The notes under the pieces: generated by a model | Databases searched by the model: none | Told to the model about the DNA's origin: nothing | Seen by the model: only the letters and a program-made list of their open reading frames with translations | Part shown: piece after piece, positions 28,946-53,858 of the stretch | Layout of the letters: each line of letters starts with the position of its first letter | Numbering within the stretch: the stretch's first letter is position 1 | Assembly: GCF_003010965.1 (NCBI RefSeq) | Contig: NZ_PGGM01000003.1 | Span: 496,001 to 560,000, forward strand | Source: Phyllobacterium sophorae | Lineage (GTDB): Bacteria; Pseudomonadota; Alphaproteobacteria; Rhizobiales; Rhizobiaceae | Length of the DNA: 64,000 nt | Reading direction: 5' to 3' | Program-made: the position numbers and the translations under genes

Positions 28946-28966
28946 GACTGTCCTGCGGCCTTCTCC

Positions 28967-30232: not shown

Positions 30233-30236
30233 GGGG

Positions 30237-30749: not shown

Positions 30750-30767
30750 CGCGTGCAAAATCTCCTG

Positions 30768-31982: not shown

Positions 31983-32009
31983 CTTACGTTTCCGGTGCAG
32001 CGGCCTCCT

Positions 32010-33393: not shown

Positions 33394-33437
33394 ATCGCAT
33401 GGCCTCGGTCACTCCGAGCATTTTCCTCAGGGCCGCA

Positions 33438-33459
33438 ACCGGTCCCAATTTGGACCGGT
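33438..33459. repeat. Perfect inverted repeat between nuoN and nuoA
   Basis: ACCGGTCC-CAATTT-GGACCGGT is an 8-bp perfect palindromic hairpin in the only sizeable gap of the minus-strand run, about 45 bases upstream of nuoA. There is no T-run. It could be an operator, an mRNA processing hairpin or part of an internal promoter region for nuoA-G. Confidence 0.6.
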
Positions 33460-33543
33460 AATGCGATCGCCCGGGAAGCACTTGGGCAACCTTTCTTGAA
33501 CTGGCAGTTTATTCCGCCGCGCGGTTCATTGCAAATCCAATGA

Positions 33544-34983: not shown

Positions 34984-36455
34984 TGGCCGCTCCCCTTGCT
35001 GTGCACCTGAGCCAGCAAATGCTTCACAGAGGCGTCGATGATGTTGAGAAAGGGCTTTGGATAGAGCCCGACCCAAAGCACGAAGAGGGCCAGAGGCAGG
35101 ATCGCAGTCATCTCGCGGCCATTCACGTCGCGTATCTTGAAGCGGGCGCCGACGCTGGCTGGACCCAGCGCAACGTTCCTGTACATGCCCAGCAGATAGG
35201 CCGCGCCCAGCAATGCCCCGAAAACGGCGGCCGCACCGACGGCCAGATTGGCCGCAAATCCGCCCGACAGCACCAGCAACTCACCTACGAATGAGTTGGT
35301 TCCCGGCAGCGCCATCGACGACAGGGTGAACAGGGCAAGAAACACGGTATAGACCGGCGCTACCTTCATCAGCCCGCCATAATCGGCTATGCTGCGCGTG
35401 TGTGTTCGCTCGTAGATCAAACCGACGAACAGGAACAACGCGCCCGTCGTTACGCCATGGTTGAACATTTGCAGGATGGCGCCCTCGAGGCCGCGGAAAT
35501 TCAACGCAAAAATCCCAAGCGTGACAAAGCCCATGTGGCTGATACTGGAATAGGCCACCAGTTTCTTCAGGTCGTCCTGCGCCAGCGCAAGCAACCCGCC
35601 ATAGACGATCGCAAGCGCCGAAAGCGCCAGCATCAGCGTCGAATAGTGCACCGATGCCTCCGGCAGCATGGGCAGTGAGAACCGCAGGAATCCGTAGGCA
35701 CCCATCTTCAGGAGCACTCCGGCAAGGATGATGCTGCCCGCCGTCGGCGCCTGTACATGTGCGTCCGGCAGCCAGGTATGAACCGGGACCATCGGCACCT
35801 TGACGGCGAAGGCGACCAGGAAGGCAAAGAACAGAAAGGACTGGACTGGGAACGGCAAATCCTGGGCAGTCAGAGCGAGAATGTCGAAGGTCTTGCCGCC
35901 TTGCAAATAAAGCACGATGACACCGATGAGGAACAGCAGACTGCCCGCCAGCGTGTAGAGGAAGAACTTGATCGCGGCATAGACCCGGCCATTGCCGCCC
36001 CACACACCGATGATCAGGTACATGGGGATCAGCATCGCCTCCCAGAAGACGTAGAACATGAACAGGTCGAGCGCGCAGAACACGCCCAGCATCAGCGCCT
36101 GCATGACCAGCAGGCTGACCATGAACTCCTTTACGCTGCGTTCGATAGCGACCCAGGAGGCAAGCACGCAGACCCAGCCCAAGAGGGCAGTCAGAAACAC
36201 GAAGAGCGCGCTGATCCCGTCGACGCCAAGCGCGTAAGTAATTCCGAGCGCTGGCACCCACGGGCGGCTCTCGGTAAACTGCATCTGGTGGGTATCAGTG
36301 TCAAAGCTGGCCAGCATCGCGACGCACAGAGCAAGATCGAGCATGGTGACACCCAGCGCTGTCCACCGCGCCGCTTCGTCGCTGCGCAAAAACATCAAAA
36401 CCGCTGCCCCTGCGGCCGGTGTGAATATGATGAGGCTAAGCAGCGGGAACCCCAT
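34980..36455 (-). CDS. nuoM: NADH:quinone oxidoreductase subunit M (antiporter-like)
   Basis: This is a 491-residue proton-pumping subunit, with ATG 36455 preceded by AGGAGG. Landmarks are FYVFWEAMLIPMYLIIGVWGG (helix-5 Glu), VPMVPVHTWLPDAHVQAPTAGS (His/Lys channel), and KKLVAYSSISHMGFVTLG. It sits between the NuoL-like gene and nuoN in normal L-M-N order. Confidence 0.94.
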   Translation of the reverse strand: MGFPLLSLIIFTPAAGAAVLMFLRSDEAARWTALGVTMLDLALCVAMLASFDTDTHQMQFTESRPWVPALGITYALGVDGISALFVFLTALLGWVCVLASWVAIERSVKEFMVSLLVMQALMLGVFCALDLFMFYVFWEAMLIPMYLIIGVWGGNGRVYAAIKFFLYTLAGSLLFLIGVIVLYLQGGKTFDILALTAQDLPFPVQSFLFFAFLVAFAVKVPMVPVHTWLPDAHVQAPTAGSIILAGVLLKMGAYGFLRFSLPMLPEASVHYSTLMLALSALAIVYGGLLALAQDDLKKLVAYSSISHMGFVTLGIFALNFRGLEGAILQMFNHGVTTGALFLFVGLIYERTHTRSIADYGGLMKVAPVYTVFLALFTLSSMALPGTNSFVGELLVLSGGFAANLAVGAAAVFGALLGAAYLLGMYRNVALGPASVGARFKIRDVNGREMTAILPLALFVLWVGLYPKPFLNIIDASVKHLLAQVHSKGSGQ

Positions 36456-36463
36456 CGCACCTC

Positions 36464-38224
36464 CTACCGCCACGCCACGGCGAAGACGACGATGGCTGCG
36501 ATCACACCGACAATCATCGCCAGCGCGTAATGGGTCACGACACCGGTCTGGAGCTGCCGCAGCATCCCGCCGCCGCGCAAGACCGAGCGGGCGACGCCGT
36601 TCACAACGGCGTCCACGCCGGTGAGATCGATCCAAAGCCCCACACGTGCCGCCCCATGCAGGAAGGGGAGCGCCGTGGTCTCGGACACGTCGCTCACCGC
36701 CTTCTCGTAGCGCGCCAGCGGTTTTTCGGCGAACCACATGAAGCGCCGCGCGCCCTTGCGGTAGAACCAGTCAGTGTCGATGCTGATCGTGTTCTCGGGG
36801 TCGAGCGCTTTCAAGAACAGCACGAACCCCAAGGCGGTAAACATCAGCACACCAAGGCTCTCGGTGATATGAACACCGGTGTAGGGTTCAAAATCGACCC
36901 GATAGGGCAGCAATGCGTAAAGCGGCTGGGGAAACACCCCGATCGCAATGCACATCACCGCGGCCATGCCCATCGCAACCAGCATGTTGCGGGGCGGCTC
37001 CCGCGCCTCCAGCCTTCGGTCAGTGCCAAAGAACATGTAATACGGAAGCTTGAGTCCCGTGTGCAGGAACGTCCCCGATGATGCCATGGTGAGTGCCAGC
37101 ACCACCAGCGCACGCTGGTCCTGTCCGGCGGCAGCCACCACCATCGATTTGGTGACGAAGCCTGAAAAGAATGGAAATGCCGAAATTGCAAAAGCGCCGA
37201 CCATGTAAAGGACAACGGTCACGGGCATGGTCTTGTAGAGCCCGCCAAGCTCGGTGAGCTTGCGCCGCCCGGTGACGTGGATCACCGCCCCTGCCCCCAT
37301 AAACAGCAGCGCCTTGTAAAGGATATGAGCGAAGGCATGGCTGACTGCGCCGTTCACCGCCATCTCGGTGCCGATGCCGACGCCGGCCACCATGTAACCC
37401 ACCTGGCTGACGATATGATAGGCCAGAAGCCGGCGGCAATCGTTCTCCAGAACCGCGTAGACGACGCCGTACAGCGCCATCGCGGTGCCCAGCCAGACCA
37501 GAAGCTCGGTCCCCGGAAACGCCCGTGCCAGAACATACACGGCCGTCTTGGTGGTGAAGGCGCTCATGAACACCGCTCCCGTGACGGTTGCCTCCGGGTA
37601 GGCGTCTGTCAGCCAGGCGTTGAGTGGTGGCACTGCGGCGTTGAGTGTGAACCCGGCAAGGATCAGGTAGGCAGCCACGCCCTTTTCCCCAAAGATCGGG
37701 CCGAAGAGCACCGAACCGGTGGCGACCCCGTAAAGAATGATGCCACCGAGCAGAACAACGCCGCCGGTGATATGGACCATGATATAGCGGAATCCAGCGC
37801 GGATCGCCTGTTCGCCGCGTTGCGCGAAGATCAGATAGGCAGAGGCAAATGCCATACCTTCCCAAAACAGGAACAAAGTGAGGTAGTCGCCGGCGAATAC
37901 CACGCCGAGCGCACTGCCGACGTAGATGAATGCCGCCACATGCTGGCCCGGGCGCGTCAGGTGCAAGGCATAGACGATCCCGATCTGCGCCATGACCGTG
38001 AATACGGTGGCAAAGACGATACTCAGCTTGTCGACCTTCGCGATAAGGATTTCCTGCCCGATGATCTGTGCTGTGCCGTAGTTGCCCGGCTGCATCGTGA
38101 GCACGGCAAGGATTGCCAATGCCGGAATCAGCAGCAGATAAGCTTTGCGGATCGGGCCTTTGAGGAAAGGGATCGGCAGGGCGCCGAGAACGAACAGCAG
38201 GGTCGGATGGACAAAATCAGTCAT
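36464..38224 (-). CDS. NuoL-like / MrpD-like antiporter subunit of complex I with C-terminal lateral-helix-type tail
   Basis: The predicted protein has 586 residues. The core looks like the D subunit of Mrp/Pha-type Na+/H+ antiporters: LFLFWEGMAFASAYLIF (helix-5 Glu), LNAWLTDAYPEATVTG and LLAYHIVSQVGYMVAGVG. The last 100 residues (WFYRKGARRFMWFAEKPL ... VNGVARSVLRGGGM, then LQTGVVTHYALAM and a terminal helix) resemble the lateral-helix end of NuoL. It occupies the nuoL position before nuoM, and no other NuoL is present. I therefore infer it is the distal pump of this complex I. The HTWLPDA motif of normal NuoL is changed to NAWLTDA. Confidence 0.8.
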   Translation of the reverse strand: MTDFVHPTLLFVLGALPIPFLKGPIRKAYLLLIPALAILAVLTMQPGNYGTAQIIGQEILIAKVDKLSIVFATVFTVMAQIGIVYALHLTRPGQHVAAFIYVGSALGVVFAGDYLTLFLFWEGMAFASAYLIFAQRGEQAIRAGFRYIMVHITGGVVLLGGIILYGVATGSVLFGPIFGEKGVAAYLILAGFTLNAAVPPLNAWLTDAYPEATVTGAVFMSAFTTKTAVYVLARAFPGTELLVWLGTAMALYGVVYAVLENDCRRLLAYHIVSQVGYMVAGVGIGTEMAVNGAVSHAFAHILYKALLFMGAGAVIHVTGRRKLTELGGLYKTMPVTVVLYMVGAFAISAFPFFSGFVTKSMVVAAAGQDQRALVVLALTMASSGTFLHTGLKLPYYMFFGTDRRLEAREPPRNMLVAMGMAAVMCIAIGVFPQPLYALLPYRVDFEPYTGVHITESLGVLMFTALGFVLFLKALDPENTISIDTDWFYRKGARRFMWFAEKPLARYEKAVSDVSETTALPFLHGAARVGLWIDLTGVDAVVNGVARSVLRGGGMLRQLQTGVVTHYALAMIVGVIAAIVVFAVAWR

Positions 38225-38471
38225 AATAGTCCTCGCGCCGCATCAGCCCACCCTGATGGCCAAGGAATTTGGAAACGAAAATCAGCAGCACGCAGGAGCC
38301 GAAGCCGTAGAAGGCGGACCAGCCAGGCAGGCGCTCCCACAGGTAATGGGCGTGGTTGCGGGAGACAAGAAAGTCGGCGGCAACGATCAGAACGAGAACC
38401 AGGTAGAACAGCCGGTGGCGCTGGTTGACGTATTTTCTGTCACCAAAGAAATCGACAATGTGTTTGATCAT
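38217..38471 (-). CDS. Small two-helix membrane protein embedded between two antiporter-subunit genes
   Basis: This is an 84-residue protein with overlaps on both sides: its ATG (38471) overlaps the stop of the MrpD-like gene, and its end overlaps the start of the NuoL-like gene. Two hydrophobic helices are predicted (FYLVLVLIVAADFLV and AFYGFGSCVLLIFVSKFLG), with a short HAHYLWERLPGWS loop and a charged C terminus (RREDYYD). I do not know a named family. The tight coupling suggests an accessory or assembly subunit of the membrane arm. Confidence 0.75.
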   Translation of the reverse strand: MIKHIVDFFGDRKYVNQRHRLFYLVLVLIVAADFLVSRNHAHYLWERLPGWSAFYGFGSCVLLIFVSKFLGHQGGLMRREDYYD

Positions 38472-39931
38472 CGGACAACTCCTTCGGCCAGGGCGAGGAA
38501 ATACTCGGGAAAGATGCCCATCAATACCGACAGGACGGCGGTTGCGACGAGCGGGATCGTCATCATCGGAATTTCGCGCACTGTTGCCGGGCTTTCCTGC
38601 GCTTCCGTTCCGAAAAAAGCGAGGTAGCTGACCGGCAGGAAATAGGCAGCGTTCAGCACCGAGCTTGCCAGGAGCACGATCAGGAACGCAATTTCCCCCG
38701 CCTCCACAGAGCCAAGCGCCAGATACCACTTGCTGACAAAGCCCGCCGTCGGCGGCACCCCGATCATGCTGAGCGATCCGACAAAAAACGCCCCCATCGT
38801 CCAGGGCAGTCTGCGGCCAATACCGGCCATGTCGCTGATGTTGCGCTTGCCAGACGCGCAATAGATCGACCCGGCGCAGAAAAACAGCGTGATCTTGGAA
38901 AATGCATGCGCTGCAATGTGGATGATCCCGCCAACCATCGCGACTGGAGACAGAAGAACCGCGCCCAGCACGATGTAGGAGAGCTGGCTGACCGTCGAAT
39001 AGGCGAGTCTCGCCTTCAGATCGTCCCGCGTCAGGGCATAGATGGACGCCATCAGGATCGTGAATGAGACCAGATAGGCCGTGGTAATCCCGAGGCCCAG
39101 CCCCTCCACGAGACCCGCGCCGAAGATGTGAAACACCACCCGCAGCACGCAAAACACGCCCATCTTGACCACTGCAACGGCATGCAAGAGCGCGCTGACG
39201 GGCGTCGGCGCCACCATCGCGGCAGGCAGCCAGGCGTGCATCGGCATCACGGCGGCCTTGGCGAAGCCAAAGAGATAGCAGAAATACACGACCGTCAGCA
39301 GTGACGCCGAGGCATTGACCCCGGCCAGCAGTCCCCCCGCTACAAAGTCGAGTGACCCTGCAAGGTGGTAGGTCAGCGCCAGCGCGGCGAGTAGCACGCT
39401 CTTCGACGCGCCCATCAAATAGACGAGGTATTTGCGGCTGCCCGTCCATCCCTCCTTGTCCTCGTGATGGTAGACAAGCGGATAGGTTACGAGGCTGAGC
39501 ACCTCGTAGAAGATGACCAGCGTGAACAGATTGGCGGCGAAGGCGCCCCCGACGGCCGCCGCGAGGCTGGTGGCGAAACACGCGAAGAACCGGGTCTGTG
39601 CATGTTCTTTCAAATGCCGCATGTAGCCGATGGAATAGATCGCAGCCACGATCCACAGCAGCGACGAAACGGTGGCAAACACCATGCCAAGGGCATCGAC
39701 CCGGAACGCGAAGTCGATACCGGGCAGAATCTCAAACAGGTGCAATTCGACCGTCCCGCCTGCAAGCACGGTTGGCGCCATCGAGACGACAATGGCGAAC
39801 ATGGCGGTTGCGGCCAAGGGCGAGACGACATCGCGGAGTTTCTCGTGCCTGTTCAGAAGTAGAACTGCCAGGGCCGCCAGACCTGCGACGGCGACGGCAA
39901 GCAGCGGCCGGATCGATACCACCGGGTCCAA
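38468..39931 (-). CDS. Additional MrpD-like antiporter subunit in the complex I locus
   Basis: This is a 487-residue polytopic protein of the proton-conducting membrane transporter family. Landmarks are LVIFYEVLSLVTYPLVYHH (helix-5 Glu), KAAVMPMHAWLPAAMVAPTPVS, LHAVAVVKMGVF, and KARLAYSTVSQLSYIVLG. It is closest in look to monovalent cation/proton antiporter subunit D and lacks a NuoL lateral helix. Placed directly after nuoK, it is a fourth antiporter-like gene besides those for NuoN, NuoM and the NuoL-like protein. Either it is a fourth pump module, or it works with the NuoL-like protein as a split distal module. Confidence 0.82.
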   Translation of the reverse strand: MDPVVSIRPLLAVAVAGLAALAVLLLNRHEKLRDVVSPLAATAMFAIVVSMAPTVLAGGTVELHLFEILPGIDFAFRVDALGMVFATVSSLLWIVAAIYSIGYMRHLKEHAQTRFFACFATSLAAAVGGAFAANLFTLVIFYEVLSLVTYPLVYHHEDKEGWTGSRKYLVYLMGASKSVLLAALALTYHLAGSLDFVAGGLLAGVNASASLLTVVYFCYLFGFAKAAVMPMHAWLPAAMVAPTPVSALLHAVAVVKMGVFCVLRVVFHIFGAGLVEGLGLGITTAYLVSFTILMASIYALTRDDLKARLAYSTVSQLSYIVLGAVLLSPVAMVGGIIHIAAHAFSKITLFFCAGSIYCASGKRNISDMAGIGRRLPWTMGAFFVGSLSMIGVPPTAGFVSKWYLALGSVEAGEIAFLIVLLASSVLNAAYFLPVSYLAFFGTEAQESPATVREIPMMTIPLVATAVLSVLMGIFPEYFLALAEGVVR

Positions 39932-39935
39932 GCCG

Positions 39936-40241
39936 CTATCCTTTCATCATGGTCACATCGTCGACCTTGAGCGTGGATTTGTTCCTCACAAGGGCGACCA
40001 GGATGCCAAGGGCGACGGCAACCTCCGCCGCCGTGATTGCTATGACGAAGATCGCGAAGATCTGTCCGCGAAAGTCGTCGTAGGTCCGCCCGAAAGCGAT
40101 GAAATTGATATTGACCGAGTTGAGCAGCAACTCCAGCGACATCAGCACGACCAGAATATTGCGCCTGAGCAACACGCCCGCGGCTCCGATCACGAACAGG
40201 ACCACTGCGAGCACAATATACCAGGACAGCGGAACCATCAC
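39936..40241 (-). CDS. nuoK: NADH:quinone oxidoreductase subunit K
   Basis: This is a 101-residue, three-helix membrane subunit. The two functional glutamates are in [13 protein letters not shown] and [16 protein letters not shown]. The start is GTG 40241 (or the adjacent ATG 40238), overlapping the nuoJ stop. Length matches the family. Confidence 0.94.
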
Positions 40242-40738
40242 CCCGGCTCCTTCCGCGCCAGCATGATGGCGCCTACCAGAGCCGCCAGCAGGATGACGGA
40301 GGCGGTTTCAAACGGCAGGAGGTAGTCGGCGAAAAGTGTCGTGCTAAGCTGCCTGATTTCATCGCCGCTTGGCCTTGCGATGGGTTCTGTGACCGAAAAG
40401 CGGGCGCTGGAGAGCACCAGCACGAGCATCTCAACCCCAAGCAGGACGACCAAGACGAGGGCTGGCAGATTGCCGCCCGGCATGAACCGCTGCAACACGG
40501 CTTCGCGAACATCGATCATCATGATCACGAAGAGGAACAGGACCATGATCGCGCCGACATAGACGAAGACCTGAATGACCGCGAGCAACGGCGCGCCGAG
40601 CAAGACGAAGATTGCCGAGATCTGCAGGAAGCACGCCATCAGCGCCAATGCGCTGTGAACCGGATTCCGCGCCAGGACCACCGTCAGGGCGGTAATCACG
40701 GACACCGTAGCGAACAGAAGAAAGAACCCCTGATCCAT
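40238..40738 (-). CDS. nuoJ: NADH:quinone oxidoreductase subunit J
   Basis: This is a 166-residue, five-helix membrane subunit. The conserved helix-3 segment [21 protein letters not shown] and the early [11 protein letters not shown] are typical of NuoJ/ND6. The start ATG 40738 has GGAGG ten bases upstream. It is the first gene of the long minus-strand run, so the locus promoter should lie in the spacer to its right. Confidence 0.93.
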
Positions 40739-41246
40739 CGACGCCGAGCCTCCAACGCGAACTGTCACTCGGCGCAAGACGGGCGTAGTTGAGACAGCGC
40801 CGCACTTCAGATGCGTTCACAAAGTGTGCCCTAGTATCGGATTTTTCACAAGATTATTGTCATTGTGGGCGTTAAACCATGCCACTGCCGATGTGGCGAG
40901 GGCAGCTTGCGGACCGCGCCCTTGCGATCCGTTCGTTGGCCAGGAGGGTTTTGAGCGCGCCGATATTGTCGGCTGCGACTCGTGCAGCAGGCGAGTTTCG
41001 ACGCCTCGGAAGGTCGTTTCACTTTGCCCCGCTTCGAGGGCTCGCGGGTCTGTCCAGGTAAGGTCTCGGCATCCTTGTCTTCAACTCCTTGTGTGCGATC
41101 CGAATGCACAAATTCATTGCCCGCACAGCTATGATCAGGCTTTCGATTTTCGATCGGCTCGGTGACTATTGCTCATCCCGATCAACTGACGCAGATCCAG
41201 CCCCAATCAGCGCCTTTTCGTCCTGAGTCTGAAAGGTTACGATGCG
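40739..41246. other. Intergenic stretch between nuoJ and the dedA-like gene
   Basis: The 508 bases separate divergent genes and must carry the nuo promoter and that of the DedA-type gene. Reading frames within it lack family motifs and ribosome sites. No FNR-type TTGAT-N4-ATCAA box and no clear -35/-10 pair was found by eye. Confidence 0.5.
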
Positions 41247-41801: not shown

Positions 41802-42063
41802 CCGCAGCAAGCCCTTTTTGCTTAAGGGGCGCGCGAGATTGCACTGGTGTACGGCGCCGGCATGAAACGGGCAAGCGTGCGCTGAACCTGCCTGGCCACC
41901 TCGAGGATGCCCTGAGGACAAGACCAGCCTTCCACGGCGACGTGCCCGCTTGCTGCCTAAACATTGACCCCGCCTGCATAAAAATGGTCAGAACTGACGG
42001 GAGTTAAGCAATAACCCGTTGAAAAGATTGGATCATACATCTGGCACGAGACTTGCTTACCTG

Positions 42064-42077
42064 TCTTGTATGCAAGA
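42064..42077. promoter_or_regulatory. Palindrome TCTTGTATGCAAGA at the start of the GntR gene
   Basis: The inverted repeat with TTGTATGCAA core resembles FadR/VanR-type GntR operators (TTGTATACAA). It overlaps the only ATG (42070) in frame near the N terminus, so binding by the encoded regulator would block its own gene. Confidence 0.45.
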
Positions 42078-42795
42078 TGCACATGTTCAGATCACATCGC
42101 AGGACGCAATCGAAACGGCCATCGTCTCGGGGATTCTCTCCGCGCGCATCAAGCCTGGTACCCGCCTGAGCGAAAACCAACTTGCCACTTTATTCGAGGT
42201 GTCTCGCACGCGCGTCAGGGAAGCGATGATGCGCCTTGAGACCAGGTGCATAGTGCAGGTCAGCCCGCGGCGCGGCTGGTTCGTCGTGGAACCTTCTGCG
42301 GAAGAAGCGATGGCCGTGTATGAGGCTCGCCGCATCATAGAAGCCGGGCTTTTGCGCAGCATGCGCACGCTCACCGACAAGGGCATTACCGCCCTTCACG
42401 GCCATCTGGCGGAGGAGAAAGCCGCGATGGCTGCCGGTGACCGCCAACGGTTGACCTGCCTGATGGGCGATTTTCATATTCGCATTGCCGAGTTGGCGGG
42501 AAACCCTGTTCTCATCGAAATTCTCCGCGATCTCACGGCGCGGACAATTCTCATCTCCATGCTCTATCAGTCGGATTTCCATGCCATGCAATCCCATTTT
42601 GGGCATTGCCGGATCGTTGAGGCCATGGAGAAGCGTGACTTTTCCAAGGCTGCGAGGCTGTCCATCCAGCATCTCGATGAGGTCGAGACCGGTTTGGACC
42701 TGACGAAACGTTCCGATCCCCTGGCCGAACTGCGAAACTCGCTCTCGCTTGCTCCCAAAAAACGTCCGGCCACGGTTTCGGGCGGACACAATTGA
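42070..42795 (+). CDS. GntR-family regulator, FCD subfamily
   Basis: The predicted protein is about 241 residues from ATG 42070; a TTG at 42019 would add 17 residues, and neither has a good ribosome site. The winged-helix domain has LSENQLATLFEVSRTRVREAM. The FCD domain follows with acidic and His ligands (MGDFHIRIAELAGN, then HFGHCRIVEAMEKRD). It ends 33 bases before the amino-acid binding-protein gene on the same strand and probably controls that importer and itself. Confidence 0.83.
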   Translation: MQDAHVQITSQDAIETAIVSGILSARIKPGTRLSENQLATLFEVSRTRVREAMMRLETRCIVQVSPRRGWFVVEPSAEEAMAVYEARRIIEAGLLRSMRTLTDKGITALHGHLAEEKAAMAAGDRQRLTCLMGDFHIRIAELAGNPVLIEILRDLTARTILISMLYQSDFHAMQSHFGHCRIVEAMEKRDFSKAARLSIQHLDEVETGLDLTKRSDPLAELRNSLSLAPKKRPATVSGGHN

Positions 42796-42827
42796 CAAAC
42801 CCACCACCTCAAAGGAGAACAAATAGA

Positions 42828-43613
42828 ATGCTTGCACGTAACATCTTCATCGCCTTGGCGACCTTTGCCGCAACCCTCGGATTCACTTCCCTCTCCTACG
42901 CGGACGCCTTGGCCGACATCACGTCGCGCGGCACAATCCGCGTCGCCGTGCCACAGGATTTTCCGCCATTCGGAAGCGTGGGCACGGACATGGCGCCCAT
43001 GGGTTATGACATCGACATGGCCAATCTGATCGCCGAACAGCTCGGCGTGAAGGCAGAACTCGTGCCGGTCACCAGCGCAAACCGCATTCCCTATCTGCAG
43101 ACCAACAAGGTTGATCTGGTTATTTCCAGCCTCGGTAAAAACCCGGATCGTGAAAAGGTCATTGATTTCTCAACAGCCTATGCGCCCTTCTTCAACGGCG
43201 TTTTTGCCCCTGCCGGGCTTTCTGCTGCAAAGGCTGACGATCTTGCGGGCAAGATGGTCGGTGTCACCCGCGGCGCCGTGGAAGACCTCGAACTTACCAA
43301 GATCGCACCGGCTGACACCGTGATCAAACGCTACGAGGATAACAACGGCACCATCTCGGCATTCCTTTCCGGTCAGGTCGAAGCGGTTGCGACTGGTAAC
43401 GTCGTCGCAGCTGCAATCCTTGCCAAGAATCCTCCCAAACGCCCGGAGCTGAAATTTCTTATCAAGAACTCGCCTTGCTATATTGGCCTCAACAAGAACG
43501 AAACGGCACTGCTTGAAAAACTGAACGCCATCATCGCCGCCGCCAAGTCTGACGGGAAGCTCAACACCGTCTCGCAAAAGTGGCTCGGCACCGATCTTCC
43601 AGCTGACCTTTGA
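42828..43613 (+). CDS. Polar-amino-acid ABC transporter substrate-binding protein
   Basis: This is a 261-residue family 3 binding protein, with ATG 42828 and AAGGAG ten bases upstream. Residues 1-25 are a signal peptide ending SYA. The mature start DITSRGTIRVAVPQDFPPFG, then MGYDIDMANLIAEQLGVKAELV, and the DLVISSLGKNPDREKVIDFS segment are classic for this family. It is the first gene of an importer with two permeases and one ATPase. The ligand may be a polar or cationic amino acid or an opine-like molecule. Confidence 0.92.
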   Translation: MLARNIFIALATFAATLGFTSLSYADALADITSRGTIRVAVPQDFPPFGSVGTDMAPMGYDIDMANLIAEQLGVKAELVPVTSANRIPYLQTNKVDLVISSLGKNPDREKVIDFSTAYAPFFNGVFAPAGLSAAKADDLAGKMVGVTRGAVEDLELTKIAPADTVIKRYEDNNGTISAFLSGQVEAVATGNVVAAAILAKNPPKRPELKFLIKNSPCYIGLNKNETALLEKLNAIIAAAKSDGKLNTVSQKWLGTDLPADL

Positions 43614-43635
43614 CGAAGGCGCCATTTATGGCCGG

Positions 43636-43663
43636 GTCGTCCCACAATTCGTCGTGGGATGAC
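43636..43663 (+). repeat. Intercistronic hairpin after the binding-protein gene
   Basis: GTCGTCCCAC (43636-43645) pairs with GTGGGATGAC (43654-43663) over ten base pairs, one of them G-T, around an 8-base loop. Such a hairpin between a binding-protein gene and its permease genes usually protects the upstream mRNA and lowers expression downstream. It covers the ATG at 43659, which argues for the later permease start. Confidence 0.65.
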
Positions 43664-43697
43664 AAGGCTGCCATCGGCCAAAACAGGGGGCATTCTC

Positions 43698-44369
43698 TTG
43701 AGCTATCATTTTGAATTTAGCTGGCTGCTTCAGTACTACCCGCAAATCCTCAAGGGTATCCTGATCACTCTCGAGCTTATCGCGATCGGAGGAGTGCTCG
43801 GCATTTCGCTCGGCATCATCTGCGCCTGGACCCGGGCTCTTGGGCCCGCATGGCTAAAACCCGTCGTGGCGGGCTATGTCGAACTTATCCGGAACACACC
43901 CTTTTTGATCCAGCTCTTTTTCATCTTCTTCGGCCTTCCATCCCTCGGGTTACAGCTTGACGAACTCACTGCCGCCAACATTGCCATGGTCGTCAATCTC
44001 GGAGCCTATAGCTGCGAAATCATCCGGGCGGGCATCCAGGCGACGCCCAGGGGTCAGTTCGAGGCTGGCGCGAGTCTGGCCATGACACCTTTTGAGACCT
44101 TCAGGCATGTCGTGCTCGTGCCCTCACTGCAGCGCATCTGGCCGGCATTGTCTTCGCAGGTCGTCATCGTCATGCTCGGCTCGTCGGTCGTGTCGCAAAT
44201 CGCCGCCGAGGACCTGACATTTGCCGCCAACTTCATCCAATCGCGCACGTTCCGGGCTTTCGAGGCCTACATCGTCTCGACGGCGATCTATCTCGTGCTG
44301 GCGATCCTGCTCAGGCAGGTTCTTGGCATCCTTGGGAGGGTTATTTTTCCAGGGAGGCTTGCACGATGA
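43698..44369 (+). CDS. Polar-amino-acid ABC transporter permease (first)
   Basis: The predicted protein is about 223 residues. I prefer the TTG at 43698 with AGGGGG seven bases upstream over an ATG at 43659 that lies in the hairpin. HisM/HisQ-type features are YYPQILKGILITLELIAIG, then VELIRNTPFLIQLFFIFFGLP and the EAGASLAMTPFETFRHVVLVPSLQR coupling loop. About five helices. It pairs with the next permease. Confidence 0.88.
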   Translation: MSYHFEFSWLLQYYPQILKGILITLELIAIGGVLGISLGIICAWTRALGPAWLKPVVAGYVELIRNTPFLIQLFFIFFGLPSLGLQLDELTAANIAMVVNLGAYSCEIIRAGIQATPRGQFEAGASLAMTPFETFRHVVLVPSLQRIWPALSSQVVIVMLGSSVVSQIAAEDLTFAANFIQSRTFRAFEAYIVSTAIYLVLAILLRQVLGILGRVIFPGRLAR

Positions 44370-45025
44370 TCGAATTCACGACCTGGGATATTATCCGCAA
44401 CCTGCTGCTTGCAACGCGCTGGACGGTTCTCCTGTCGCTCGTCTCCTTCGTGGGCGGCGGCACAGCCGGACTGCTTCTTCTGTTCCTGCGCATAAGCAAG
44501 CGCAAGGCACTGCGCGGTTTCGCCAGATACTACATTGAGCTCTTTCAAGGCACGCCGCTTTTGATGCAGCTCTTTATTGCCTTCTTTGGGCTTGGACTTT
44601 TCGGGATCGACGTGCCGGCATGGCTGGCTGCCGGACTGGCTCTCATCTTGTGGACCGCATCCTTTCTTGCTGAAATCTGGCGCGGCTGTGTCGAGGCGGT
44701 CGCCAAGGGACAATGGGAGGCTTCTGCCAGCCTTGGCATGGGTCGATTCCAGCAGATGCGCTACATTATCCTCCCCCAGGCATTGAAAGTCGCCATACCG
44801 CCGACGGTCGGCTTTTCCGTTCAGGTCGTCAAGGGTACTGCGCTGACCTCCATCATTGGCTTCGTCGAATTGTCGAAGGCCGGAACGGTCGTAACCAATG
44901 CAACCTTTCAGCCCTTCACCATCTACGGGCTTGTTGCTCTCATCTATTTCGCGCTCTGCTGGCCATTATCCAAGAGCAGCCAGATTCTGGAAAGGAAGCT
45001 CAATGTCGCTCATCGAAATCACTGA
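44366..45025 (+). CDS. Polar-amino-acid ABC transporter permease (second)
   Basis: This is a 219-residue permease whose ATG overlaps the stop of the previous gene. It has the same family features: NLLLATRWTVLLSLVSFVGG, YIELFQGTPLLMQLFIAFFGL, then the coupling loop EASASLGMGRFQQMRYIILPQALK. Its end overlaps the ATPase gene by 23 bases, so the three genes are translationally linked. Confidence 0.9.
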   Translation: MIEFTTWDIIRNLLLATRWTVLLSLVSFVGGGTAGLLLLFLRISKRKALRGFARYYIELFQGTPLLMQLFIAFFGLGLFGIDVPAWLAAGLALILWTASFLAEIWRGCVEAVAKGQWEASASLGMGRFQQMRYIILPQALKVAIPPTVGFSVQVVKGTALTSIIGFVELSKAGTVVTNATFQPFTIYGLVALIYFALCWPLSKSSQILERKLNVAHRNH

Positions 45026-45728
45026 AGTCAGGAAGAGCTTTGGTTCAACCGAGGTCCTGAAAGGCATCAATCTCGATGTCGAACCGGGGGAAGTGATTGC
45101 CATCATCGGCAAGAGCGGATCCGGAAAATCGACGCTGCTTCGCTGCATCAATGGGCTTGAAACGATCAACAACGGCTCGATTTCCGTGGCTGGCGCGCAG
45201 TTCATTGATGATGAATTGCATCTGAAGGCGTTGAGGTTGAAGGTCGGAATGATCTTTCAGCAGTTCAACCTCTTTCCGCACCTGACCGTTGGCGGCAATG
45301 TCATCCTGTCGCAGACTGTCGTCAAGAAAACGCCGAGGCCTGAAGCGGAAACAATGGCTCGCAAAATGCTCGAGCGGGTTGGGCTCGGGCACAAATTCGA
45401 TGCCTATCCAGACGAGCTCTCCGGCGGTCAGCAGCAGCGTGTAGCGATCGCCCGGGCCCTGGCCATGCAGCCGATCGCGCTGCTTTGCGACGAGATTACA
45501 TCGGCACTCGATCCGGAACTGGTGTCAGAGGTGCTGGCGGTCGTGCGCGAGCTTGCCACCGAGGGCATGACCCTCCTGATGGTGACCCATGAGATGAAAT
45601 TCGCGCGCGACGTCTGCTCGCGCGTCGTCTTCATGCACCAGGGCCGCGTGCACGAAATCGGGCCGCCAGAAGGGGTCTTCGCCAATCCCAAGACGCCGGA
45701 GTTGAGGCAGTTTCTTGGTGTGCACTAA
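45003..45728 (+). CDS. Polar-amino-acid ABC transporter ATP-binding protein
   Basis: This is a 241-residue ATPase of the GlnQ/HisP type. Walker A IIGKSGSGKSTLLRCINGLE, the Q-loop MIFQQFNLFPHLTV, the signature ELSGGQQQRVAIARAL, Walker B LLCDEITSALDPELV (the usual DEPTSALD is DEITSALD), and THEMKFARDV are present. It begins with ATG 45003 inside the second permease gene. Confidence 0.92.
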   Translation: MSLIEITEVRKSFGSTEVLKGINLDVEPGEVIAIIGKSGSGKSTLLRCINGLETINNGSISVAGAQFIDDELHLKALRLKVGMIFQQFNLFPHLTVGGNVILSQTVVKKTPRPEAETMARKMLERVGLGHKFDAYPDELSGGQQQRVAIARALAMQPIALLCDEITSALDPELVSEVLAVVRELATEGMTLLMVTHEMKFARDVCSRVVFMHQGRVHEIGPPEGVFANPKTPELRQFLGVH

Positions 45729-45923: not shown

Positions 45924-46850
45924 CTAGCTCCGACGATATGGATCTGAGCGCTCACGCAAATCGCTGGATTCCAGAAATTCTGCGACCGTCCCAAGGCACA
46001 GTTCTTTTTCCTCGACATGCGGCATGTGACTGGACTGCTCAAAAACGACCCAACGGGCATCGGATATGTTTTCGACATAGGGTCTGACAACCTCTGGCGT
46101 AGCTTCGTCATAGCGTCCCGATATCACGAGTGTCGGTGCCTTGATCCGGTTCAGGCGATCGACAATTGTCCAATCTTTCAGTGTTCCAATGACATGGAAT
46201 TCCGTCGGGCCGTTCATATTGCGATAGACTGTGGAGTCCTCGTCCATAATGGCAAATGTCCGTGCGACCTCTTGCGGCCATGGCGCCACCCGGCAAACAT
46301 GACGATCGTAAAAGACGCGTGACGCGGCAAGGTATTCAGGGTCTGTCAGCGTCCCAGCCTGTTCGTGCTTTACAAGAGTGGCCTGGACCTCTTTTGGCAA
46401 CTCACGACGCAGGCGATTGGCTTCTGCAACCCAGGTGTGCATGGAGGCAGGGGAATTGGCAATGATCAGAGCCTTCAGCCCGTCGGGCTGGCGCACAGCG
46501 TGCTCGGCGCCAAGCATACCGCCCCACGACTGGCCGAGGAGGGCATAACGGTCTTCAATACCAAGATGTTTCAGCAATGCATCAAGCTCTTCGAGGAACA
46601 ATGAGACCGTCCAGAAATCCGCGCCTTTTTCCGGCAAACGGGTCGAATAGCCATTGCCGAGCTGATCGTAATGGATGACGGCTCGGCCGCTAGCGGCCGA
46701 AAGATGTTTAAATGAATCGACATAGTCATGCGTGCAGCCGGGTCCGCCGTGAATGACCACCAGTGGCAAAGAGGAAGAGTCAAGTGACCCGGTTATGCGG
46801 TACCAGGTCCGGTAGTCGCGAAAGGGCAGATAACCTTCCTTTGAACTGAC
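45924..46850 (-). CDS. Proline-iminopeptidase-like alpha/beta hydrolase (first copy)
   Basis: The predicted protein is 308 residues from ATG 46850, with GGAG 12 bases upstream; ATG 46871 would add seven residues. The alpha/beta hydrolase is of peptidase family S33. The oxyanion [10 protein letters not shown] motif, the nucleophile elbow GQSWGGM, a late acid (SGRYDEATP) and His in SSHMPH give a complete catalytic set. It would release N-terminal residues, often proline, from short peptides or cleave related amides. It is next to the LuxR solo gene on the same strand, with a lux-box-like element upstream. That matches the pip-gene context of plant-responsive LuxR solos. Confidence 0.88.
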
Positions 46851-46922
46851 CATTTGCAAATTTTTCTCCATCAATTGCAGACAATGGAGAAAAGGATAGC
46901 GTGCCGGGAACGCGCAAGGCAG

Positions 46923-46938
46923 CTATCATAAGTTATAG
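46923..46938 (-). promoter_or_regulatory. lux-box-like element upstream of the first hydrolase gene
   Basis: CTATCATAAGTTATAG has the CT-N12-AG frame of lux boxes and near-symmetric CTATNA / TNATAG arms. It shares CTATCA-N4-TTATAG with the element at 47761-47776. It lies about 70 bases upstream of the hydrolase start and just past the end of the LuxR gene. It is probably bound by that regulator; no clear -10 element is seen. Confidence 0.6.
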
Positions 46939-46951
46939 GATGAGGTCCGCT

Positions 46952-47713
46952 CTAATCGAGCAACCGGTAATGGGCAGCACGAACAACCGCCTGGACCCGG
47001 TTTCTTGCTCCGAGTTTTTTAGCCGCCGCATTGAGATGCATAACGACTGTGGGCACGGAACGCTGGATATGGCGCGCGATTTCCTTGGCGGAGAGGCCAT
47101 CTGCCGAGTAACGCAGGCACTCCCGTTCCCTTGCGGTCAGATGAACGGTGGCACAGCTTCGCGTCTCCTCATCGAATACCGAAAATGCCGCCTCGTGGAA
47201 CACATGCGCCAGCAGACCGAAATCGGCGATATGACGGGCAGCATCGCGTTCGTAGCCCCTGCCTGCACCAAACCGGACGCCCGTCACGGTCGCATAGTCG
47301 CCGCGAGGCAAATGAATCGGAACTGTTGTCCCGCAGAGCATGTCGCGCTCGCGCAGATAGTGTACGACCGGCGCATGATCGTCGTTCATGAACCGGTTAA
47401 TAACCGTGTCCGCTTCGGCGCTGTAGTTCCAGAAAAAAGGCGTGGTTGTCCCGATGGCTTGCTGTTGTACCGGATCGATGCGGAAATATTCCCTTTCGCA
47501 CCAGTATTCACGCATTTCATCCGAGATATTCCTCAGTTTGAGCAGCGACGGTATCATCAAGGCACCGTCGTGGTCGAACGGAACTGGCGTATAATCGTAT
47601 ATGAGCGCATCGAAGCCGAAGGCTTTCATCGCCTCGAACGCTTCATCGATCCTTCCTTCCAGCGTCTCCCGCGCGGTGAACTGCCCCTTGATGTGATCGA
47701 TATCGTTTAGCAT
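46952..47713 (-). CDS. LuxR-family solo regulator of the plant-responsive (PipR/OryR) type
   Basis: This is a 253-residue transcription factor with an N-terminal autoinducer-binding domain (about 20-165) and a C-terminal LuxR helix-turn-helix (about 185-245, LTARERECLRYSADGLSAKEIA). Aligning by DP and W to TraR gives W85, D70, P71 and G113 conserved. Position 57 is Met (MREYW) and position 61 is Trp. These two changes mark LuxR solos of plant-associated bacteria that respond to plant-derived compounds instead of acyl-homoserine lactones. No luxI gene is near. Flanking proline-iminopeptidase-like genes and a peptide-type ABC transporter fit the same group. The start is ATG 47713; a TTG at 47728 is possible. 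Confidence 0.88.
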   Translation of the reverse strand: MLNDIDHIKGQFTARETLEGRIDEAFEAMKAFGFDALIYDYTPVPFDHDGALMIPSLLKLRNISDEMREYWCEREYFRIDPVQQQAIGTTTPFFWNYSAEADTVINRFMNDDHAPVVHYLRERDMLCGTTVPIHLPRGDYATVTGVRFGAGRGYERDAARHIADFGLLAHVFHEAAFSVFDEETRSCATVHLTARERECLRYSADGLSAKEIARHIQRSVPTVVMHLNAAAKKLGARNRVQAVVRAAHYRLLD

Positions 47714-47760
47714 CCGTGTGCCTGTCAATCAGAAACTCAGGCAATCCGCCTGGGGAGACC

Positions 47761-47776
47761 CTATCACTTCTTATAG
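47761..47776 (+). promoter_or_regulatory. lux-box-like element upstream of the hydrolase/ABC operon
   Basis: CTATCACTTCTTATAG shares CTATCA-N4-TTATAG with the element at 46923-46938. A -10-like TATATC (47794-47799) lies 17 bases after its right end, so the right arm occupies the -35 position, as in LuxR/TraR-activated promoters. It is 81 bases before the second hydrolase gene and 47 bases upstream of the divergent luxR gene, and could control both. Confidence 0.65.
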
Positions 47777-47806
47777 CTGGTGTTGAGTGCGGATATATCT
47801 AAAAAT

Positions 47807-47835
47807 TAGCCATGCTCAAATCTTGAGCAAGGCTA
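47807..47835 (+). repeat. Inverted repeat in the leader of the hydrolase/ABC operon
   Basis: TAGCC-AT-GCTCAA-ATC-TTGAGC-AA-GGCTA forms a two-part stem with a 2 by 2 internal loop. It starts about where transcription from the TATATC box would begin. It could be a 5-prime stem that stabilises the mRNA or a second operator. Confidence 0.55.
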
Positions 47836-47857
47836 AAGATCCTTCGGAGACAGCTGA

Positions 47858-48751
47858 ATGTGGCGTGAAATGAAGCCGGACCAGCGGCACGAAGTGCAAG
47901 TCGATGGCTATCGTGTCATCGCCTACAGTTTTGGTGCTGGCGATGAGGTGGTGTTCTGCCTCAATGGTGGCCCCGGTTTGCCATGCGACTATCTGCGCGA
48001 AGCCCACTCCTGTCTGGCTGACAACGGCTATCGCGTCGTGGCCTTCGATCAGCTAGGCACCGGTGAATCCGATCGTCCGCAAGATCTTTCGCTGTGGACA
48101 ATCGACCGATACGTCGAAGAGACGGAAACTGTGCGCAAGGCGCTGGGTCTTGGCAAGGTGCATCTGCTCGGCCATTCCTGGGGCGGCTGGCTGGCTATTG
48201 ATTATGCCCTCGCCTATCCACAGAACCTGAAAACTCTCATCCTTGAAAACACGGTTGCCGACATGCCACATCTGATCTCGGAGCTTGAGCGCCTGCGATC
48301 AGCACTCGGTTCCGAGACGGTTGGCATGATGCACAAGCACGAGGCGCAGGGAACACTCGATCATCCGGAGTATATGGCGGCAATCACCATCCTCAATTAT
48401 AGGCATGTCTGCCGGCTGGCCGACTGGCCGGCACCGGTAAAACGCTCGCTGGATGACTGGAACATGGATCCGTACGGCACAATGCAAGGTCCCAATGAGT
48501 TTCTCTACACCGGCAATCTGAAAGACTGGAACCGGCTTGCAGACCTTCCCAAAATAGCAGTTCCAACGCTCGTCACCGTCGGCGAAAACGATGAGCTTAC
48601 ACCCGCCTGCGCCTTGCGCATGAAGCTTGCCCTTCCCGATGCCGAATTGAAAGTCTTCGCCAATGCGAGCCACATGCCATTTTATGAACAACCGCAGAGC
48701 TATTATCCAGTTCTTCTAGACTTTCTCTCGCGCCACAGGACGGCGCTATGA
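47858..48751 (+). CDS. Proline-iminopeptidase-like alpha/beta hydrolase (second copy)
   Basis: This is a 297-residue S33-type hydrolase, with ATG 47858 and GGAG eight bases upstream. Motifs: CLNGGPGLPCDYLREAH (oxyanion region, NGGPG instead of HGGPG), GHSWGGWLAIDYA (nucleophile Ser), VGENDELTPA (acid), ASHMPFYEQP (His). It is clearly related to the first copy, sharing the PEYxAA, RHVCR and GTLDHPEY-type segments, but diverged. It leads an operon with a Dpp-type ABC transporter, so it likely processes what that transporter brings in. Confidence 0.9.
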   Translation: MWREMKPDQRHEVQVDGYRVIAYSFGAGDEVVFCLNGGPGLPCDYLREAHSCLADNGYRVVAFDQLGTGESDRPQDLSLWTIDRYVEETETVRKALGLGKVHLLGHSWGGWLAIDYALAYPQNLKTLILENTVADMPHLISELERLRSALGSETVGMMHKHEAQGTLDHPEYMAAITILNYRHVCRLADWPAPVKRSLDDWNMDPYGTMQGPNEFLYTGNLKDWNRLADLPKIAVPTLVTVGENDELTPACALRMKLALPDAELKVFANASHMPFYEQPQSYYPVLLDFLSRHRTAL

Positions 48752-48793
48752 ATCGGGCAATGTTGCTTCAAACAAATCACTGGGCGCGCAACA

Positions 48794-49732
48794 ATGCACC
48801 GCTATAAATTCATCCTTTATCGGCCCCTGCAGTTTCTGCCCGTTATTTTTGGCGTCAGCCTGATCACATTCATCCTGGTGCGGCTCATTCCCGGCGACCC
48901 GGCAAGGGTTCTTCTTGGCGCCCGTTCCACACCCGCGGCAATCGCCAACATTCGCGCGCAGTATGGTCTGGATGAGCCCTTGTGGCTGCAATATTTCTAT
49001 TTTCTTAAAAACCTTGCCAATGGCGAGATGGGAAAATCAATACTTTACAAGATCGATGTGCTGAAGCTGATCGCCACCCGCATCGAGCCGACGATCACGC
49101 TCATCGTGTGCAGTGTTTTCCTGTCAATTTTAATTGCCATCCCGCTCGCTGCAATTGCAGCACGCAACCGCGGCGGCATACCGGATCACGCAGTCCGCCT
49201 CATTTCGACGATGGGCATTGGCTTTCCGCCATTTTGGCTGGCACTGATGCTTATAATCTTGTTCAGCGTCAAACTCGGCATTGTGCCAGTGTCGGGCTAC
49301 GGCGAGAACTTCGGCGACAAGCTGGCGCACCTCATCTTGCCCTGCCTCACCATCGCCCTGTGCCTGTCCTCGGTCCTGACCCGCAGCCTACGCGCCAGCA
49401 TGGTTGTTGAGTTGCAGTCAGATCTTGCAACCGCGGCGCGCGCGCGCGGAATGCCCGAAAGCATCGTATTCTGGCGGCACGTCCTGCCCAACTCGCTTGT
49501 TCCTGCGGTCAACCTCCTTGCCGTCAATATTGGTTGGTTGATCGGCGGAACGGTGGTCGTCGAAACAGTCTTCGCCATCCCGGGCATGGGGCAGTTGCTG
49601 GTGCGCGCCATATTCTCTCGCGACTACATGGTGGTTCAGGGTGTGGCGATGGTCTTTGCCTGCGGCACAGTGCTCGTCAACTTCCTCGCCGACATTTTGA
49701 CAGTGACGATCGATCCGCGGGTGAAGCTATGA
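48794..49732 (+). CDS. Dpp/Opp-type ABC transporter permease (DppB-like), PipR-linked operon
   Basis: This is a 312-residue permease with the family opening ITFILVRLIPGDPARVLLG and about six helices. The coupling loop is TAARARGMPESIVFWRHVLPNSLVP and the terminal motif IDPRVKL. It follows the second hydrolase gene by 42 bases, and its stop overlaps the next permease (ATGA). Confidence 0.92.
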   Translation: MHRYKFILYRPLQFLPVIFGVSLITFILVRLIPGDPARVLLGARSTPAAIANIRAQYGLDEPLWLQYFYFLKNLANGEMGKSILYKIDVLKLIATRIEPTITLIVCSVFLSILIAIPLAAIAARNRGGIPDHAVRLISTMGIGFPPFWLALMLIILFSVKLGIVPVSGYGENFGDKLAHLILPCLTIALCLSSVLTRSLRASMVVELQSDLATAARARGMPESIVFWRHVLPNSLVPAVNLLAVNIGWLIGGTVVVETVFAIPGMGQLLVRAIFSRDYMVVQGVAMVFACGTVLVNFLADILTVTIDPRVKL

Positions 49733-50576
49733 GCACCGGTCACGCCTTCAGCGCCAAGATTGGCTGGAGCCGGTGGCTGGGTCAGCGGTTGACGCTTGTC
49801 GCCGGCATGGCCATCCTGGGACTCTTCATTTTCATGGCGATCGCAGCACCGATGATCGCCCCTTATGACCCCATTGCCCAAAATGGTGATCTACGTCTCG
49901 TTCCACCGTCATTTCTTCATCCGTTCGGCACCGACAATTTCGGCCGCGATATCCTGTCCCGCATCATCTGGGGCGCGCGTATAGATCTTCAAATCGCCTT
50001 TATTGGAGTGGCCTTTCCCTTCCTCATCGGAACGGTTCTCGGAACGATCTCCGGCTATTTCGGCGGAATTATCGACACCGTCTTCATGCGGTTGATCGAT
50101 ATTATTCTGGCCTTTCCCTTCCTCGTCCTGATGCTATCGATTATAGCCATTCTCGGACCGGGGCTTCTCAGTTTCTACATCGCCATGGCGCTCGTTGGTT
50201 GGGTATCCTATGCCCGGCTTATCCGGACACAGATGCTTGTCCTGAAGAACAGCGACTATGCTGTCGCTGCCGTGAGCCTAGGCTTCAGCAATGCGAGGAT
50301 CATGTTCCGGCACTTGCTTCCCAATGCCATCGCTGGCTCCGTTGTCTTCTCCATGTCGGACGCCGTCCTCGTTCTGCTAAACGGAGCGGCAATCAGCTAT
50401 CTCGGACTAGGCGTTCAGCCCCCGTTGGCCGAATGGGGCGTCATGGTTGCAGAAGGGCAGAGTTTTATCAGCACCGCCTGGTGGATCACTCTTTTTCCCG
50501 GTCTGTCCATCGTTGTCCTGGCCTTTGGTTTCAGTTTATTCGGTGACGGGCTTGGCGAAGTGCTGGGGGTACGCGA

Positions 50577-50580
<4 letters not shown>
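49729..50580 (+). CDS. Dpp/Opp-type ABC transporter permease (DppC-like), PipR-linked operon
   Basis: The predicted protein is 283 residues, with ATG 49729 overlapping the previous stop. FGTDNFGRDILSRIIWGARIDLQIA is the DppC landmark. The coupling loop AAVSLGFSNARIMFRHLLPN and the end FSLFGDGLGEVLGVRE complete the fold. Both ends overlap neighbouring genes by four bases, so the operon is translationally coupled. Confidence 0.92.
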
Positions 50581-52336
<1,756 letters not shown>

Positions 52337-52340
<4 letters not shown>

Positions 52341-53851
52341 ACAGGAAATGGATGCGTCTCAGCATAGCGACGACATTGGCGGTGTTGACATTCGGTGTCA
52401 GCATGGCAGAGGCCCAGGGGGTGCTGACCATTGGCAGGCGCGAGGACAGCACCACATTCGACCCGATCAAATCCGCACAAAATGTTGACAATTGGGTATT
52501 TTCAAATGTGTTTGATGTCCTCGTGCGTGTCGACAAAACCGGCACGAAGCTGGAGCCGGGCCTTGCTCAGAGCTGGACGGTCTCTGAAGATGGGCTGACC
52601 TATACGTTCATCATGCGTGGCGCGAAGTTCTCCGATGGCTCGCCTATAACGGCAAATGACGCTGCCTATACCTTGTTGCGTATCCGTGACAATGAGGGCT
52701 CGCTCTGGAGCGACTCGTACAAGGTCATAGACACTGCCGAGGCAAAAGACGACAAGACCCTTGTCGTCAAGCTCAAAACGCCATCCGTGCCCTTCCTGTC
52801 GACCCTGGCATTGCCGAATGTATCGGTGATTTCGCAAAAAGCTATGGAAGAACTTGGCGAGGACACATTTGCCGAAAAACCGGTCGCGTCCGGCGCATTT
52901 GTCGTGAAGGAATGGCGTCGCGGTGACCGCGTCATTTTGGAGAAGAATCCGAATTTCTGGCAGGCGGACCGGGTGAAACTCGATGGCGTCGAATGGATTT
53001 CCGTGCCCGATGACAACACCCGTATGCTGAACGTCCAGGCCGGCCAGCTTGACACGGCAATTTTCGTGCCGTTTTCCCGCGTAGAGGAATTGAAGAAAGA
53101 CCCGAACCTCCATGTCGAAATCAACACCTCGACACGTGAAGATCACCTTTTAATCAATCACGAACATGGTGCGCTGGCCAAGAAGGAAGTCCGCCAGGCG
53201 ATCGATATGGCTATCGACAAGAAAGCGATTGTTGACACTGTCACGTTCAACCTTGGTGAGATTGCCTATTCCTATATTCCGAAAGGCTCGCTCTACCACT
53301 ATGCCGGCAATCTTCAGCGTCCCTATGATCCGGAAAAAGCCAAACAAATGCTAGCGGATGCCGGAGCAAGCGCACTGTCGCTCAACTATGTCGTCAATGC
53401 AGGAAATGAGACCGATGAACAGATTGCCGTTCTTTTGCAACAGCAATTGCAGAAAGCCGGAGTGAGTGTCAATCTGCAGAAGGTCGATCCAAGCCAGAGC
53501 TGGGACATGCTGATCGCCGGCGATTATGACATCTCGGTCATGTACTGGACCAATGACATCCTCGATCCCGACCAAAAGACAACATTCGTCCTCGGGCATG
53601 ATACCAATATGAATTACATGACCCGTTACAGGAACGACAAGGTCAAGGATCTGGTTGCCGCGGCCCGCCTGGAACAGGACCCGAAGCAACGCGAAGCTAT
53701 GTATGTGGATTTGCAGAAGATGGCCAAGGACGACGTCAACTGGATCGATCTTTACTACAGCCCCTACATCAACGTCACACGCAAGAACATTGAAAACTTC
53801 TACCAGAATCCATTGGGAAGGTTTTTCCTTGAGGACACGGTGAAAAACTGA
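52337..53851 (+). CDS. ABC transporter substrate-binding protein, family 5, PipR-linked operon
   Basis: This is a 504-residue periplasmic protein whose ATG overlaps the ATPase stop. Residues 1-30 are a signal peptide (LSIATTLAVLTFGVSMAEAQ). LEPGLAQSWTVSEDGLTYTF, GAKFSDGSPITANDAAYTL and VRQAIDMAIDKKAIV are family 5 landmarks. In related plant-responsive LuxR systems, a binding protein of this type is needed to import the plant signal or peptides. That role is inferred here from the operon and its lux-box-like promoter. Confidence 0.92.
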
Positions 53852-53858
53852 GGAAGCG

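Follow-up and report, generated by a model that had tools for sequence, protein, structure and literature searches.

Systems close to the locus reported here are known among the PAB LuxR solos (OryR subfamily). In Pseudomonas sp. GM79, PipR lies with AapA-F and PipA; its response is lost in an importer mutant and is stronger in peptidase mutants (PMC4981722), and the structure of Pseudomonas AapF was solved with the ethanolamine derivative HEHEAA (7KZ9; PMC11168924). Xanthomonas OryR, XccR and XocR are described as having M57 and W61 and an adjacent pip gene, with no linked ABC importer reported in Xanthomonas (PMC4981722). PAB solos with the gene arrangement of the locus reported here have been described from Rhizobium, Agrobacterium, Shinella, Aureimonas and others (PMC10134790; PMC4338825). 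ExpR/AHL binding has been described at the nesR promoter of S. meliloti, and the NesR ligand was called uninvestigated in a 2018 review (PMC5977203). Phyllobacterium was named, among literature matches on LuxR solos, for the VjbR type only.

The window (the whole 64,000-nucleotide stretch of Phyllobacterium sophorae DNA that was analysed) carries a 7.9-kb block of this kind, and our main reading, to which we give a probability of about 0.8, is a Phyllobacterium copy of the NesR/PipR-type module, combining amide import, LuxR sensing, activation from two boxes and peptidase feedback. The genes of the block, all of them open reading frames, are as follows.

45924..46871, minus strand: pipA-type proline-iminopeptidase-family hydrolase, downstream of luxR (TIGR01250, 279.2 bits; ATG start, TTG possible at 46874)
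46952..47713, minus strand: luxR-type solo, predicted NesR/PipR ortholog (M57, W61, Q73, V101, L105; Pfam domains, alignment and tree)
47858..48751, plus strand: aapA-type proline-iminopeptidase-family hydrolase (TIGR01250, 281.4 bits)
48794..49732, plus strand: aapB, ABC permease (domain matches and locus comparison)
49723..50580 (start approximate), plus strand: aapC, ABC permease (domain matches and locus comparison)
50577..52340, plus strand: aapDE, two ABC ATPase domains in a single ORF (domain matches and locus comparison)
52337..53851, plus strand: aapF, substrate-binding protein of family 5 (identical to solved AapF, 7kz8, at 355 of 479 residues)

The luxR ATG matches the annotated start of a 95% identical P. 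zundukense protein (762 bases), and a TTG at 47728 gives an alternative ORF of 46952..47728 on the minus strand. The protein matched Pfam Autoind_bind (93.8 bits) and GerE (51.8 bits), both above cut-off. The segment NISDEMREYWCEREYFRIDP aligned without gaps to RhlR, QscR and LasR, and also to TraR (1h0m) using MAFFT, giving M57, W61, D70, P71, Q73, W85, V101, L105 and G113 in TraR numbering. The initial annotation had placed Met57 and Trp61 by anchoring on D70-P71, W85 and G113, and both the anchors and the two residues hold in this gap-free alignment to structurally solved AHL receptors; fold comparison supported the family, but did not yield a residue-level alignment. The canonical AHL-receptor pocket W57/Y61 (TraR/LasR type) is absent, and Q73, V101 and L105 are the residues that PsaR2 and OryR are described as having at these TraR positions (PMC3909224).

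For phylogenetic placement, a 52-row tree was assembled by hand from 9 of 80 named loci, 20 further regions, two plasmid records, the genome's own paralogs, LuxI-paired proteins and references. The LuxI-paired rows were 12 LuxR ORFs found beside luxI at 30 luxI loci, the other 18 having no LuxR within 1500 bases, and the 6 references were two TraR, QscR, SdiA, and variants of RhlR and LasR (four partial, two engineered variants). The tree covers S. meliloti and three Pseudomonas-type (PipR-like) rows, without OryR, XccR or PsoR; several long branches were flagged, and one relative (L008), whose matched range contains a TGA, was for that reason excluded from alignments. Twenty-nine PAB-like rows formed one side of a branch with support of 100/99, recovered in 100% of 200 bootstrap trees, and the opposite side held the 12 LuxI-paired proteins, the 6 references and the two own paralogs. 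Inside the PAB clade were the S. meliloti 4H41 row and the three Pseudomonas-type rows, whose AapF proteins are 94-95% identical to solved Pseudomonas AapF, and the window LuxR grouped with P. zundukense and P. endophyticum (99/98). The placement check proposed in the initial annotation, for which a position among canonical AHL receptors would have spoken against a plant-responsive solo, thus leaves the LuxR outside those receptors, and residues, tree and neighbours agree that it almost certainly belongs to the PAB LuxR solos, as had been claimed.

A luxI profile search of the assembly (99.33% complete, so that a missed gene is possible) returned no match, in line with the earlier claim of a solo. 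The search had no match in its own 14 control genomes, and an alternative control with the same model matched 85 of 151 same-family genomes. An AHL receptor and a luxI-paired system were set aside on the residues, the tree and this luxI search of the assembly. A solo whose altered pocket still takes an acyl-homoserine lactone, eavesdropping on other cells, is a separate idea, and a highly improbable one: W61 and Q73 occur in all 29 PAB-clade rows and W61 in 0 of the 20 others (12 LuxI-paired, 6 solved receptors, 2 own paralogs), the PAB rows form a separate clade, and AHLs are reported to elicit no response from OryR or PipR (PMC4981722). Three proteins of the genome carry Autoind_bind. The two LuxR-type paralogs of this luxI-less genome (L001, G000:C1:148329-148772; L003, G000:C2:159481-159942) both have W57 and Y61, and L003 additionally carries I85 and F113, which are given as substitutions of VjbR-type solos, those of Phyllobacterium among them.

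Residue 57 varies within the PAB clade, being M in 25 of 29 rows, W in the three Pseudomonas-type rows and L in one, so M57 is not universal there. The initial annotation had counted PipR among the holders of both substitutions, and this did not stand: PipR is reported with W at both 57 and 61 (PMC7301841), its conserved tryptophan is stated to be unchanged (PMC4981722), and our own Pseudomonas-type rows have W57 in 3/3. PipR and the window LuxR share W61 and differ at 57, so the same ligand is not to be assumed, and the Pseudomonas-type LuxR rows are 46% identical to the window protein. The two systems otherwise have gene order, an AapF ortholog and a box-like site between luxR and aapA in common, with aapD and aapE fused in the window (50577-52340), whereas they are two genes in GM79. 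From Xanthomonas, the window shares M57, W61 and the adjacent pip gene, but differs in having a linked ABC importer. In S. meliloti, the 4H41 LuxR (L085), which we infer from the published arrangement to be NesR (SMc04032), is 70% identical to the window LuxR with M57 and W61 in both, and the seven-gene order and both boxes are shared with the window; by sequence, the window protein is the Phyllobacterium ortholog of this NesR-type protein. The ExpR/AHL binding at the S. meliloti nesR promoter contrasts with a Phyllobacterium genome in which luxI had no match. The PAB solo type and its gene arrangement were already known; new here are the Phyllobacterium member, to which the finding extends the system, a near-invariant operator pair and a two-site genome scan.

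The neighbours had been described as proline-iminopeptidase-like genes flanking luxR plus a peptide-type importer, in a complete locus, and this description was confirmed. A pip gene lies on each side of luxR, the two (TIGR01250, 279 and 281 bits) being the sole matches above the cut-off of 168 among 16 in the genome, and the unit divergent from luxR comprises a hydrolase followed by an ABC importer of the peptide/nickel class, made up of a pair of permeases, a double ATPase and a binding protein of family 5. AapF is 74% identical to 7kz8 (E 3e-245), the next solved protein scoring 1e-47. The order pipA-luxR-aapA-aapB-aapC-aapDE-aapF was kept in 80/80 rhizobial loci, with pipA at the same position in 80/80; these named loci represent the 80 best among 349 relatives confirmed in a single scan, a choice that favours close kin. 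Among 20 more distant regions, 10 were complete, one lacked aapA, three lacked pipA, two had luxR and pipA without the Aap importer, and four had luxR alone. A Rahnella plasmid has luxR, pip and importer, with aapA absent. The distant relatives L179 and L180 (also L184) have two tandem aapA-like pip genes ahead of the importer, giving at least three pip-family genes per locus.

To delimit regulatory sites, 81 intergenic sequences (the best 80 of 349 loci and the window) were aligned, giving one near-invariant block per gap. The elements concerned are listed below.

46893..46898, minus strand: -10-like TATCCT, starting 33 bases from the box B centre (TATG in relatives; putative promoter function)
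46922..46939, minus strand: box B, CCTATAACTTATGATAGC, candidate operator of CT(N12)AG form between luxR and pipA (centre 46930.5, ~59 bases before the pipA ATG)
47760..47777, plus strand: box A, CCTATCACTTCTTATAGC, candidate CT(N12)AG operator in the luxR-aapA gap (centre 47768.5, ~89 bases upstream of the aapA ATG)
47800..47805, plus strand: -10-like TAAAAA, starting 32 bases from the box A centre (putative promoter function)
47806..47836, no strand: inverted repeat with 14-base arms, TTAGCCATGCTCAA-ATC-TTGAGCAAGGCTAA, within the predicted aapA leader, directly after the predicted -10 of aapA

Both boxes match, as sequences, the CT(N12)AG pattern given as the motif of las and pip boxes (PMC4471428), and box A (47760-47777) occupies the position of the promoter named at 47761 in the initial annotation. 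Among the best 80 of 349 relatives, box A was unchanged in 79/80 loci and box B had at most 2 mismatches in 80/80, with no further site of box quality found in those loci; the pattern was derived from the same loci, so this fit is not independent. The -10-like stretch that follows each box is conserved, and its spacing from the box resembles the position of -42.5 that lux boxes are stated to have (PMC4471428). For GM79, the literature gives one site ahead of pipA, centred at -71.5, and a possible further one centred at -91.5 (PMC4981722), compared with ~-59 (pipA) and ~-89 (aapA) in the window, so the idea of two-sided control is not itself new; an operator pair in rhizobia was not seen in the literature searched, with subscription papers mostly outside reach.

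Scanned with up to 3 mismatches, the window gave 3 box matches against 0.07 expected from shuffles, and the genome gave 10 sites, of which the two at the locus were exact and the remaining 8 had 3 mismatches; a reversed-pattern control gave 42, so these 8 are background. Beyond boxes A and B, no site with at most 2 mismatches was found in the genome, and in 9 other genomes two 2-mismatch sites lay away from the locus (G032:C15:17240, G028:C30:343086). In 149 relatives, allowing at most 1 mismatch, 14 sites were found in 9 genomes, 13 of them at the locus of 8 gene-carrying genomes; such boxes occurred in 8/12 genomes with the gene versus 1/137 without it, and the reversed pattern gave 12 single sites. 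No box of this quality was found in four of the 12 gene-carrying relatives (G026, G046, G056, G061), so the box drifts outside rhizobia. When a matrix built on 160 sites was applied, each of the three Pseudomonas-type regions had its best site between luxR and aapA (scores of 6 to 15), and the enterobacterial-type regions L176 and L193 scored near or below zero in that gap, so the box is not general across the whole family. A wide regulon, sought by the scan of the window genome, was set aside, the 8 extra sites being background, though degenerate sites are possible.

That only two good boxes occur in the genome suggests a closed local circuit of import, sensing and hydrolysis. In the mechanism we propose, AapF-AapBCDE would import a small peptide-like or ethanolamine-derived amide, most likely of plant origin; LuxR, in which Met57, Trp61 and Gln73 replace AHL-receptor pocket residues, would bind this compound or a close derivative and then the two near-identical 18-20 bp boxes, activating aapA-aapF rightward and pipA leftward; and the two peptidases would hydrolyse the ligand, closing a negative feedback. 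Import, activation and feedback we infer from PipR of Pseudomonas GM79, and a plant origin of the ligand is likely.

The two-box result also suits a regulator that senses imported peptides or amides generally, turning on uptake and hydrolysis as a nutrient circuit with no plant-signal sensor, since the good boxes lie only at importer and peptidase units. PipR also responds to peptone and Ser-His-Ser, GM79 PipA and AapA are aminopeptidases (both PMC4981722), and NesR has been tied to nutrient deprivation and stress (PMC5977203). Leaf macerates nevertheless trigger PipR-type regulators, OryR also governs motility genes via pip-box-like sites (PMC4399327), and the phylogenetic group is reported chiefly from plant and terrestrial bacteria (PMC10134790), and we regard a general nutrient circuit as possible but rather doubtful.

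Several published negatives, together with the drift of the box, count against the module with a plant-derived ligand. Kosakonia PsrR, with M57 and W61 like the window LuxR, is reported to give no response to rice macerate, ethanolamine or HEHEAA (PMC7301841), pip was not regulated by PsaR2 in vitro (PMC3909224), and a close AapF homolog is described as not binding HEHEAA (PMC10134790). Unresponsiveness of some PAB members to plant extracts (PMC7301841, PMC3909224) would also fit a ligand-independent or decayed regulator, a box-bound activator or repressor whose pocket has gone out of use; every gene of the block is open, however, and the whole block with both boxes is kept in three Phyllobacterium copies (window, P. 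endophyticum, P. zundukense), and we consider such decay quite improbable. For the NesR/PipR-type module, the locus offers exact, near-invariant candidate operators that could serve in a reporter, along with a close relative of a binding protein of solved structure, and Phyllobacterium, as a luxI-free background, makes the ligand question approachable without endogenous LuxI-type AHL.

The repeat at 47806-47836 was dropped as the operator, since it is the 18-bp box flanking it that recurs at pipA. Of the 81 intergenic sequences (best 80 of 349 loci and the window), 71 gave a match to a related TGCTCA..GCA element and 10 did not. As RNA on the window strand, the repeat folds at -20.2 kcal/mol (z -3.6), and its commonest relatives break one pair there; lying below the -10, it could be a repressor site or an RNA hairpin. 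An ExpR site in the aapA leader was considered as a possibility; no ExpR consensus was found. A further inverted repeat (46862-46893), whose arms TTTTCTCCAT / ATGGAGAAAA are 12 bases apart, spans the pipA start region.

Window positions 36000-60000 matched a plasmid record of Phyllobacterium sp. A18/5-2 at 98.3% over all 24,001 bases, with LuxR 99.2% identical, and the nearest records are Phyllobacterium from root nodules. At the P. zundukense and P. endophyticum loci, the sole matches to the window were 45961-53851 (90%) and 45972-53852 (78%), that is, the block from pipA through the end of aapF, and the flanks differ. The gene is carried by 3/20 Phyllobacterium genomes and by 153 plasmid records, mostly Rhizobium. 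This pattern suits exchange of a compact block, and loss in other genomes is also possible. Whether the locus of rhizobia and Phyllobacterium is a private, mobile and self-limiting circuit, with two operators genome-wide, both at its own locus, and exchanged as a precise 7.9-kb block with near-unchanging operators, is to us an evenly balanced proposal; if true, the sensor would serve a single plant-derived amide as its dedicated uptake-and-processing switch, and would not be a community-wide signalling regulator.

Beside pipA, and outside the block shared with P. zundukense, lie a GntR/FCD regulator and a family-3 amino-acid ABC importer (42019-45728). Farther off, 26363-40777 holds nuoG, nuoN and nuoM matches, small ORFs that by eye resemble nuoK/nuoJ, plus two extra subunits of antiporter-D-like type (NF006236, 841 bits; NF009310, 791 bits), and by its predicted gene content is a second-type complex I with additional antiporter subunits replacing the normal nuoL.
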